Of a stretch of 64,000 nt of DNA, positions 53,300 to 57,588 are shown piece by piece. The translations under genes and the position numbers were made by a program. The DNA is taken from contig NZ_CP083724.1 of NCBI RefSeq assembly GCF_020150815.1, positions 62,001 through 126,000 on the forward strand, read 5' to 3'. Numbering within the stretch: position 1 is the first letter of the stretch; each line of letters starts with the position of its first letter. The notes beneath the pieces are model-generated. The model saw only the letters and a list, made by a program, of their open reading frames with translations, searched no databases and had not been told where the DNA came from. Source of the stretch: Haloprofundus salilacus (GTDB lineage: Archaea > Halobacteriota > Halobacteria > Halobacteriales > Haloferacaceae).

Positions 53300-53740
53300 T
53301 CAGTGTGTAGATGGGAGTTCTGCGAGGGAGAACCAAAACTCCTCGACCGTTCTCGCCAGTGAAACGAACTCGATCGGATCGACGGGTTTGATGAGATACG
53401 CGTTTGCGCAGTGGGCGTAGGCGTTGCTGATGTCCTCTTCGCTGGCCGAACTCGAGAGGATGATTACGGGAATCCGTCGCACGTCAGGGTCCTCTGCAAT
53501 CTCTGTGAGGAGTTCGCCACCATCCTTGTTCGGGAGATCCAGATCGAGCAGGATGAGGTCGGGGCGGTGGCGTCGGCGTACGCGCCCCGTTGATACAGGA
53601 AGTCCGTGGCTTCCTCCCCATCCCGCGTAACGTGGATTTGGCAATTGGTTTTGCATTCGTTAAATGCCTCCTGTGTGAGGCGGATACCTCCCGGATTATC
53701 TTCGACCAGCAGGCCTGCAACCGATTCGGTATTCGCTACT
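53300..53740 (-). pseudogene. Third response regulator receiver, frameshifted
   Basis: Frame one holds [20 protein letters not shown], then [20 protein letters not shown] and ADAT. A shift of one base near 53565 moves to frame two, with [31 protein letters not shown] and ANAYLIKPVDPIEFV. No start codon is present before LLVEDNP, and the conserved Asp of DNPGD is Gly. It is a decayed paralogue of the receivers at 2646 and 51144. Confidence 0.88.
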
Positions 53741-53793: not shown

Positions 53794-54186
53794 TCACTCG
53801 AGTGTTAGTTTGTCGAGATGCAGTCCGCGCCGCTCAACCGTCTCGTAATAGTCACTGAGCACATCACTCGCTAATTTCGACCACGAGCGACCCATCTGGC
53901 CAATAACCTGCGTGAGCGCACGGCGATTCTTCGATTCAACTAACTGTGAATTCTCGTCGAGGAACCTCTGGGTCACTTTCTCGCAGTCGTGGTCTTCGAG
54001 GTAGGCAATGCGCGTCACTACACCGTTGAATCGCTTCGCGGGTCCACCTCTGACGACGAAGAATCGGAGCCCGGCCTCTTGATGGCGACTCAGTGGGGTC
54101 GTTGGCAGATCGTCTTCTGGTGAGGGTCCATGTGATTGGAGGTAGGCGATGTTGCGGGTGGGTTGGATGGGATAGAACCAATGCAA
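53794..54186 (-). CDS. Hypothetical protein
   Basis: A 130-residue frame. The C-terminal two-thirds looks helical and coding (RFNGVVTRIAYLEDHDCEKV, then RALTQVIGQMGRSWSKLASD and YYETVERRGLHLDKLTLE). The first 40 residues (FYPIQPTRNIAYLQSHGPSP) are less convincing, and the start may lie further in. No family is recognised. It faces the AT-rich gene at 54304. Confidence 0.5.
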   Translation of the reverse strand: MHWFYPIQPTRNIAYLQSHGPSPEDDLPTTPLSRHQEAGLRFFVVRGGPAKRFNGVVTRIAYLEDHDCEKVTQRFLDENSQLVESKNRRALTQVIGQMGRSWSKLASDVLSDYYETVERRGLHLDKLTLE

Positions 54187-54303: not shown

Positions 54304-55425
54304 ATGGCAAATGACAAACATGAATTGGTGGTGAAGACGAACATGGATAATCTGTCTCCCCATGCAGTGGGACTGAATTCCTCTTTTATGGAAAAAAGTG
54401 ATATCCAGATTGGTAACCGGCTCGTAGTAAAAGGTCGTGACTATACCTCTGCTGAAGCTCAAAGAGCTGATGCTGATATTAGTGAAGATGAAATATGCCT
54501 GGGCTCACTTGTTGAAAAAAACTTGAAGGCCAAAAATAGAGATGTCATTACAGTTGAGAAACGTCAACCAAAGGATGCTGACTTAGTTGTCTTTAACAAA
54601 TCTACAGAGGGAAGGAATGAGGAGACAGAGGAACAGTTGAAGAGGCTATTTAGACACAGGGTGGTAACAACTGGTGATTTGGTACGAAGCGATGGTGACG
54701 AATCATCAGCTGGGACACGTCTAGAGGGGTCGACTAATGAACAAATAGAAGTAACTGTTAGGCAAGTTGATTCGGCTTCTCCTTTAGAACTGGGCGATAT
54801 TGCTTGGAGCCTCACTCCACAGAAAATAACGGATGATACTCGAGTTTTACTACGAGAAAAACCCTCAGATAAGGTACAACAACTCCTATCCGAGGAAGCA
54901 AACGACATTTTCAGACTTTCGCTTGAACGGCGAGTACAAATGGAAGATGCTGCATTGCGACTTACTGAACAAAACGCAGTGATTCTTGGTATTACATTTG
55001 CGGGATTAACACTCTGGGCAGACCTTCGATCGGGGGGAGGCGGAGGAACACTTCTGTCAGCGTTTGAGCATCCAGTGATGTTGGTGGCTGGGCTTCTGTC
55101 TATACTTGGCTCTATCGCGTATTCCTTTGTGACTTTTGCAGACTATCACTATAAATTGCGAATTGGATGGCCATTTGAGAAGAAAAGCCGCGCTGGAGGA
55201 TTAGATTGGGAAACCACTCGAAGGGCTCTCAATAGCGGTAACGAAATCCCAGAAATCGAGGCGAGGTTATTAGAGGGCAAGATGAAATGGAGTAAATTCA
55301 ATACCAAATATAATAATAATATGAAAAAGAGACTAATATATTGCCAAACCTTACTTGTATTAGGTTTATCACTAATTGCTGTGGCCCTTTTCTGGCAATT
55401 TCTCAACGATTCTGGGGCTCTTTAA
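54304..55425 (+). CDS. Membrane protein with Cdc48/VAT-N-like domains
   Basis: A 373-residue protein. Residues about 7-98 resemble the Cdc48/VAT double-psi barrel: SDIQIGNRLVVKGRDYTSAE, then EICLGSLVEKNLKAKNRDVI and TVEKRQPKDADLVVF, aligned with the IGD...RKNAGV...VRK pattern. Residues about 108-183 resemble the second Cdc48 subdomain (LKRLFRHRVVTTGDLVR, then DTRVLL). No AAA+ domain follows. Instead come a coiled coil (about 188-222), two membrane helices (about 225-241, 255-280), a cytosolic segment and a third helix (345-367). It is clearly AT-richer and more Lys/Asn-rich than its neighbours, so it is probably recently acquired. The role is unknown; a membrane-bound sensor or adaptor is a guess. 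Confidence 0.6.
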   Translation: MANDKHELVVKTNMDNLSPHAVGLNSSFMEKSDIQIGNRLVVKGRDYTSAEAQRADADISEDEICLGSLVEKNLKAKNRDVITVEKRQPKDADLVVFNKSTEGRNEETEEQLKRLFRHRVVTTGDLVRSDGDESSAGTRLEGSTNEQIEVTVRQVDSASPLELGDIAWSLTPQKITDDTRVLLREKPSDKVQQLLSEEANDIFRLSLERRVQMEDAALRLTEQNAVILGITFAGLTLWADLRSGGGGGTLLSAFEHPVMLVAGLLSILGSIAYSFVTFADYHYKLRIGWPFEKKSRAGGLDWETTRRALNSGNEIPEIEARLLEGKMKWSKFNTKYNNNMKKRLIYCQTLLVLGLSLIAVALFWQFLNDSGAL

Positions 55426-55763: not shown

Positions 55764-56489
55764 ATGTCAGTAAATAGCAATTTAACGCCAGTTGAGGGTG
55801 CAGTCATCGCAGAAGCCCTTACGAAGAAGGAAGGGACCTTCGTTGATATTGAAAAACCAGAAGATTTCGTATTTACGAAAGCCGATGAAACTCGGTCTGT
55901 AACCTCAGAAACCGTAAGCGAGGCGGTCAAAGTAGTCGTTGCAGAACTTGAAAGTCAGGGAGTGGAAATCCCGGCATCTCTCCGCGAATCTAATTTAGAT
56001 GTCGTTGTTGGTGACACGCTCCCTGAATCTGCACTGGAGACAGTTCTTATCCATACGGCTAGAGAAAAATCAGGAATGTTCCTCGACTTCGAGGTACACC
56101 CCATCTTAGATCTCTACACTCTCCAAAGGGATGCGAAATTCACGTTTTTCGTAGAAGGGAGCCCAAGCTACAGCTTTGATGCTGTGATCACCTTCAAGGT
56201 AGCCGGAGGCGGCGTAGCAAAGTACAAAACGTACACTATCACCCTTTCTCCGCAGGAGGGCCTCAAAATCGAGCCCAAATCTCACACCTCGTGGGCAGTG
56301 AATAACGTGAATGCTGGGTGGTCAATCCGATACCTTGCTGAAGGTCGAGTTGGTTTCCCGAGCCGAATTGGCCTCAGCGTATTGGGAAAACCGCTTCTGA
56401 AGCGCTTGGACCAACACCTCTACGGGAAACTAGAGGTTGACCAAAAGCCAGAGTTCAGGCTGATCGAGCCAAGCGAGGTGCCCGCATAA
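55764..56489 (+). CDS. Hypothetical protein, 241 aa
   Basis: A soluble protein with no recognised domain. The N-terminal half is helical and acidic (VEGAVIAEALTKKEGTFVDI, then VSEAVKVVVAELESQGVEIP). The second half is strand-rich (FTFFVEGSPSYSFDAVITFK, then YKTYTITLSPQEGLKIEPKS). No signal peptide. It lies between the Cdc48-N-like membrane protein and the convergent Orc1/Cdc6 gene, and shares the more relaxed codon use of that region. Confidence 0.6.
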   Translation: MSVNSNLTPVEGAVIAEALTKKEGTFVDIEKPEDFVFTKADETRSVTSETVSEAVKVVVAELESQGVEIPASLRESNLDVVVGDTLPESALETVLIHTAREKSGMFLDFEVHPILDLYTLQRDAKFTFFVEGSPSYSFDAVITFKVAGGGVAKYKTYTITLSPQEGLKIEPKSHTSWAVNNVNAGWSIRYLAEGRVGFPSRIGLSVLGKPLLKRLDQHLYGKLEVDQKPEFRLIEPSEVPA

Positions 56490-56505: not shown

Positions 56506-57588
56506 TCAGTGCCGCTGAACCTCGTACTGGGTCCACCGCCCAGATCCCTTCGACCGAATGAGTTTGTAACGAGCGAGTCCGTTGAGATACTTCCGCTGCA
56601 TCCGTGGAGTCTTCGCATTACTCCCTGAACGCTCTTCGTACCGTTCACGAAGCTCTCCAGCGCCGAGTTCACCGGCATCTTTGATAATCTCGTAAAGCAT
56701 CCGCTGGTGGGTGCTTAGAGCGTCGACGTGGCGCATATGTAGCTCGTCACGAGCGTCGTCCCGAATCTCGTCGACGACATCGGTCGTAATCTGACTGCGC
56801 TGCATCTCGATAGCCCACCGCGCCGACCGGCGCAGTAGCGCGATACCGAACCGAGCGTCGCCCGTAGCGGTGTCGGCGATGTAGTCGACCGCTTCGTCGG
56901 AGACGGTGTTTGGCCCCAAGCCTGCGCTGATCCGTCCACGGAGGATGTCGACCATCTCGTCGTGGCTGTACTTCTCAAGTCGTACCTTCCCAGCGCCTCG
57001 GAGTCGACTCTCGACACGAGAATCGAGATCAGCAAAGAGATCGTCCTCGTAGACGGTGATGAGAATCATCGTCACGTTCGGAAGATCGTTGAGTGCGAGT
57101 AACGTCGTCAAATCTTCGAGGACGTCAACCTCGTCGAGGACAGCGACGAACTGCCCGTCGAGTTCTCGCAGACGGTCGATGAACATCGACGCCGGAGTAC
57201 CCTCGATACGAAGGTCCGCAGCCCGACCTGCGTGCCTAGCGAGAGCGTGCAAAACTGCGGACTTCGAGGAGTCACTCATACAGTTGACGTAGCCCCAGCG
57301 AATACCGAGAGCCTCGCGTTCGAGCTGGCGGAGGACGAACTTCGCTGTCGTCGTCTTGCCAACTCCACTCGGCCCAAAAATGAACGCATCTTCTCCAACA
57401 TCGCCGTGCGTAATCGGTCGAAGTACTGAGGAGAGCTGCGTAATCTGCCCCTCTCGGTGATAGAGTTCCTGGGGTAGATACTCCGGTCGGAGCGCACGAG
57501 CGTCAGTTATCACATTCACAGTCAAATCAAGAGGCGAGCGGTCACTCTGTGTCCTCTCCCGCGTCGAGTTTCTCTTCGAGCGCTGCAA
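56506..57588 (-). CDS. Orc1/Cdc6 replication initiator
   Basis: A 360-residue AAA+ ATPase. Walker A is FGPSGVGKTTTAK, Walker B is FVAVLDEVD, sensor 1 lies in NVTMILITVYED, and sensor 2 in TGDARFGIALLRRSARWAIE. The C-terminal winged helix ends KYLNGLARYKLIRSKGSGRW. These are hallmarks of archaeal initiators. The ATG overlaps the small gene at 57542 by 47 nt; a GTG start further in is possible. It is the last gene of the minus-strand operon and may initiate replication of a plasmid or provirus integrated here. No origin repeats were seen beside it. Confidence 0.9.
   Translation of the reverse strand: MQRSKRNSTRERTQSDRSPLDLTVNVITDARALRPEYLPQELYHREGQITQLSSVLRPITHGDVGEDAFIFGPSGVGKTTTAKFVLRQLEREALGIRWGYVNCMSDSSKSAVLHALARHAGRAADLRIEGTPASMFIDRLRELDGQFVAVLDEVDVLEDLTTLLALNDLPNVTMILITVYEDDLFADLDSRVESRLRGAGKVRLEKYSHDEMVDILRGRISAGLGPNTVSDEAVDYIADTATGDARFGIALLRRSARWAIEMQRSQITTDVVDEIRDDARDELHMRHVDALSTHQRMLYEIIKDAGELGAGELRERYEERSGSNAKTPRMQRKYLNGLARYKLIRSKGSGRWTQYEVQRH

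Follow-up and report, generated by a model that had tools for sequence, protein, structure and literature searches.

The open reading frame at 54304-55425 of the window (the whole stretch of DNA that was analysed, 64,000 nucleotides) starts with a real Cdc48-type N-domain and contains no AAA+ ATPase; a membrane module follows instead. This combination had been proposed in a preliminary description of the DNA, and evidence from sequence, profiles and fold upholds it. The gene and its immediate surroundings comprise the following features:

54304-55425, + strand: ORF encoding the fusion protein (373 aa, open frame)
54304..54861, + strand: Cdc48-type N-domain, residues 1-186 (Nn ~6-98, Nc ~108-187), from Pfam, profiles, hhalign and Foldseek
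54868..54969, + strand: long polar helix/coiled coil, residues ~189-222, from the AF2 helix 189-243 and alignment with standalone relatives
54964..55038, + strand: most conserved block, TEQNAxIxGxxFAGLTLWADLRSGG, residues 221-245, spanning predicted TM1, from comparison with the Natronobiforma relative
55072..55161, + strand: predicted TM2, helix 257-286, from AF2 and hydropathy
55162..55329, + strand: basic loop between TM2 and TM3 plus helix, residues ~287-342, from AF2 and hydropathy
55333..55422, + strand: predicted TM3 (residues ~344-368) and short C-terminus, from AF2 and hydropathy
55764..56489, + strand: downstream orphan ORF of 241 aa, 338 bp from the fusion gene, no family

A Cdc48-type N-domain without its ATPase

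Both subdomains of the Cdc48 N-region are present, as had been suspected. Pfam CDC48_2 scored 25.3 bits at residues 109-188 of the window protein, above its cut-off of 22.4, and CDC48_N was matched weakly (15 bits at 22-86); in the relative from Natronobiforma cellulositropha (see below), CDC48_N scored 31.4 bits (E = 2e-7; cut-off 35.1). A profile of nine aligned canonical haloarchaeal Cdc48 N-domains, drawn from loci that the N-half had matched (below), found the window ORF with E = 4.5e-20 (67.0 bits, the runner-up among the window ORFs reaching 6.9 bits) and the Natronobiforma relative with E = 8e-20. In a shuffle control (n = 2000), the best score was 10.6 bits, compared with 70.4 bits for the real N-half. 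Alignment of the N-half with hhalign covered residues 6-130 at 99.0% probability (E = 6e-18), a probability obtained from two profiles only and without library calibration. When PDB sequences were searched with the N-half profile, all 60 matches listed were Cdc48/p97-type ATPases.

The fold comparison recommended in the preliminary description was made with a low-confidence model of the relative's N-domain (AF2, pLDDT 57). The best 50 Foldseek matches were without exception of the p97/Cdc48/VCP/PEX1/NSF/SPATA5 type (probability 0.98-1.00), at E-values just above 1e-3, and consisted of N-domain-bearing ATPases or isolated N-domains, including a VCP-like double-psi barrel from Methanopyrus. Matches of the full protein (AF2 from a two-row input, N-half pLDDT ~40) were mostly BAR domains (E at least 0.045); they reflect the long helices and were discarded.

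The window N-domain terminates in ITDDTRVLLREKP, which parallels VTEETEVVLREKP at the equivalent place of canonical Cdc48 (L006); the fusion junction therefore corresponds to the N-D1 linker. Neither a Walker A motif nor a Pfam AAA domain was found in the window protein, which thus lacks the tandem AAA+ domains that define a Cdc48 ATPase. A broken Cdc48 with its ATPase encoded in the adjacent gene was rejected, as the neighbour at 56509-57588 is an Orc1/Cdc6-like gene on the opposite strand.

Relatives, origin and setting of the fusion gene

A protein search of 391 genomes of the class returned one full-length relative, that of N. cellulositropha (32% identity, E = 2e-42, residues 18-367); in the same search, the N-half matched several ORFs of ~740-780 aa and the C-half two membrane proteins. 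A two-row fusion profile searched against 170 genomes of the family repeated this picture, and Cdc48-type ORFs of ~700-800 aa proved widespread there. The two families holding fusions were searched with n exceeding the genomes that each gave back (170 and 125), and class, order and phylum were sampled; no third fusion was found in those two families or in the class, order and phylum samples. Natronobiforma was also the only relative in an alignment-based scan, and single-protein pattern scans of genome contigs and viral contigs returned none. Plasmid records yielded just weak Rhizobium N-domain matches (E = 0.03) and phage records no match, so that the fusion protein is not encoded in any virus, phage or plasmid record searched. 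With 2 genomes among several hundred haloarchaeal ones, the fusion is very rare.

Conservation over the full length in a second haloarchaeal family supports that the frame is coding. A fortuitous junction between a decayed Cdc48 paralogue and a membrane gene, with a functionless product, would fit the few relatives and the long branches seen in the N-domain tree (below), yet the open frame, full-length conservation at 32% identity in the second family and the near-invariant TM1 block make it extremely improbable.

In a tree of C-halves, the two fusions group together as a clade (support 100/100) that takes an outgroup position relative to a family of standalone membrane proteins (next section). 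Because this clade is fully supported, a single fusion event is likely. In the N-domain tree, the N-halves of the fusions sit on long branches among divergent Cdc48 paralogues, and a sister relationship between the two has low support (26% of bootstraps). Double-psi barrels bind varied ligands, which, together with the long branches, would agree with a membrane signalling protein that reuses the N-domain simply as a fold and binds a non-Cdc48 ligand such as a nucleotide, metal or peptide. Retention of both subdomains and of the linker end, and best matches that fall specifically within the Cdc48 family, render this improbable.

The fusion gene sits on the smaller, 488-kb contig (C2) of a genome of 3.73 Mb in two contigs. 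Its GC3 of 0.36 is the lowest among all called window ORFs (median 0.64), which suggests that it was acquired horizontally, and recently. One might think of a Cdc48 decoy or inhibitor, encoded for example by a mobile element, whose motor-less N-domain competes at the membrane for adaptors and clients. The lack of an ATPase, the low GC3 with its probable horizontal acquisition, and the location on a secondary contig near the Orc1/Cdc6-like gene speak for it. A decoy should preserve its binding surface, though, and the N-domains are highly diverged (26% identity between the fusions); furthermore, none of the searched virus, phage or plasmid records encodes the fusion. This explanation is considered decidedly improbable.

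No defence gene was recognized beside the fusion gene in the window, and a pyrimidine cyclase gene (PycC) was absent among the scanned neighbours of both the window gene and its Natronobiforma relative. At the Natronobiforma locus, the relative has a methylase/restriction gene of the Eco57I type ~2.8 kb downstream. The survey of homologues and their neighbourhoods that had been suggested thus produced one full-length relative, and the two fusion loci have no neighbour in common. No relatives of the orphan ORF at 55764-56489 turned up in the plasmid collection or among 60 genomes, and it could not be assigned to a family; an operon with the fusion gene was ruled out by the 338-bp gap and the lack of co-occurrence, and the orphan is a possible partner of the fusion protein. 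A start-truncated response-regulator-like ORF and a short family-less ORF (53303-53656 and 53797-54186) are probably gene remnants.

The membrane half and its haloarchaeal family

A coiled coil and three membrane helices had been described as replacing the AAA+ domains, and AF2 helices and hydropathy bear this out. The predicted helices span residues 189-243 (coiled coil running into TM1), 257-286 (TM2) and 315-370 (with TM3 at ~344-362), with pLDDT mostly 60-88; hydropathy is clear for TM2 and TM3 and moderate for TM1 (peak KD 1.3). The loop between TM2 and TM3 (residues 286-344) contains 14 K/R and 7 D/E and, by the positive-inside rule, would be cytosolic. Identity between the window and Natronobiforma proteins is 38% in the membrane half and 26% in the N-domain, and conservation along the whole protein peaks at residues 221-245, where 21 of 25 columns are identical. 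This better conservation, above all of the 221-245 block, argues that the module does more than anchor.

The same comparison bears on a serious rival, proteostasis tethering, in which the N-domain would gather Cdc48 adaptors or clients at the membrane for the cell's Cdc48 or proteasome and the membrane part would be a mere anchor. Among Cdc48-type proteins, it is usually the N-domain that binds adaptors or substrates (PMC6017811), and Cdc48-type ORFs are widespread in the haloarchaeal family, so a Cdc48 system to work with is generally at hand. On the other hand, a housekeeping tether should be widespread and not confined to 2 genomes, and one would not expect a mere anchor to be conserved better than the N-domain, as the C-half is; the tether is regarded as somewhat less likely than the effector described below.

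Profile and pairwise searches matched the C-half to standalone haloarchaeal membrane proteins, and the similarity of the profiles shows that the two are related; the polar helix of the fusion aligns with the pre-TM1 helix of the standalone relatives. The module-family profile found members in 106 of 242 genomes, distributed patchily and with up to 15 copies per genome, the number reached in one of them (G175; L056-L058 and others). Three members directly follow type IIG (Eco57I/TaqI_C) genes at a distance of 2-4 bp, these being a whole RM gene (L070) or an ORF with the C-terminal part (L065, L068); such module genes may be an undescribed accessory of haloarchaeal type IIG systems. A Fic-domain gene is located a few ORFs from the member at L056, and one member (L082:1971-3065) carries a C-terminal nuclease-like extension (DUF2130, E = 1.8e-4, below cut-off). 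Housekeeping genes occur as neighbours as well (argininosuccinate-synthase-like ORFs, read from the ORF sequence, at L071 and L072).

The layout had been likened to SLATT effectors. This has indirect support from the family with which the C-half groups: among 15 module members, PADLOC PycTM models matched nine (best E = 4.9e-6), the CBASS 2TM effector model two and the SLATT model one, all weakly. The window protein itself shows no such resemblance to the models, as neither fusion matched a PycTM, SLATT or 2TM model. Pfam PycTM (PF18967) likewise matched neither fusion, and its sole match in the genome that contains the window lies elsewhere (13.3 bits, cut-off 27.2). That the C-half is a genuine PycTM was rejected because the module profile does not recognize genuine haloarchaeal PycTM (E = 0.5-0.7); given this and the weak matches of the relatives, the C-half is best called PycTM/SLATT-like. 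Apart from this family, haloarchaea also have PycTM proteins above the Pfam cut-off, two of them adjoined by a cyclase-like ORF (read from sequence), at L094:146-1482 and L095:571-1827; these two are probable haloarchaeal Pycsar pairs.

Possible function and comparison with known systems

The explanation tentatively preferred here is a single-gene, membrane-anchored effector with a cytosolic Cdc48-N head as its binding or sensing part. The N-domain, facing the cytosol in the topology outlined above, would bind a partner, which might be an adaptor of Cdc48 or else a protein that is unfolded, modified or foreign; binding or oligomerisation would be relayed through the coiled coil to the three-helix module, which, being related to PycTM/SLATT-like effectors, may then perturb the membrane. 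We infer from this a role in defence. The homology of the N-domain, kinship of the C-half with a patchy multi-copy family, the type IIG neighbours, the DUF2130 extension, the PycTM matches, the low GC3, the Eco57I-type gene in Natronobiforma and the better-conserved membrane half were counted in favour of the effector. Counted against it were the failure of the fusions to match any effector model and of the module profile to find genuine PycTM, the housekeeping neighbours, and the loci themselves, with no defence gene in the window and no common neighbour. The more specific proposal, in which a single archaeal gene would encode an effector of immunity or quality control that senses misfolded, modified or foreign proteins through its N-domain and opens or disrupts the membrane directly, appears quite unlikely.

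No description of a Cdc48-N plus membrane-module architecture was found in the open-licence literature searched. That two families of haloarchaea carry on a membrane module an N-domain that is normally the accessory of a motor suggests that its binding function is usable alone, and the fusion offers a small, testable protein for what archaeal Cdc48 N-domains recognize. The finding also draws attention to PycTM-like membrane proteins as a large haloarchaeal family that has been little described and part of which accompanies type IIG restriction enzymes.

The Pycsar effector PycTM disrupts membranes (PMC11224242). A D-x-KA helix before TM1 is common to it and to the relatives of the C-half, which match PycTM models weakly; in contrast to Pycsar, the fusion has no adjacent cyclase gene, and the fusions themselves are unmatched by PycTM models. 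SLATT domains are predicted nucleotide-responsive, pore-forming effectors that occur in fusions with other proteins of conflict systems (PMC7159879). Like SLATT and CBASS 2TM effectors, the fusion has a long helix ahead of two closely spaced membrane helices, but it has a third predicted membrane helix and no direct model match, and a counterpart of the Cdc48-N head on such effectors was not found in the literature searched. The standalone family (L042-L051, L056-L075), proteins of 170-300 aa, aligns along the C-half with 19-24% identity and, unlike the fusion, lacks the Cdc48 N-domain. With Cdc48, VAT and p97, finally, the fusion has in common the N-region with its two subdomains, CDC48_N and CDC48_2, in order and ending at the N-D1 linker, whereas the D1/D2 AAA+ ATPase has given way to the membrane module.
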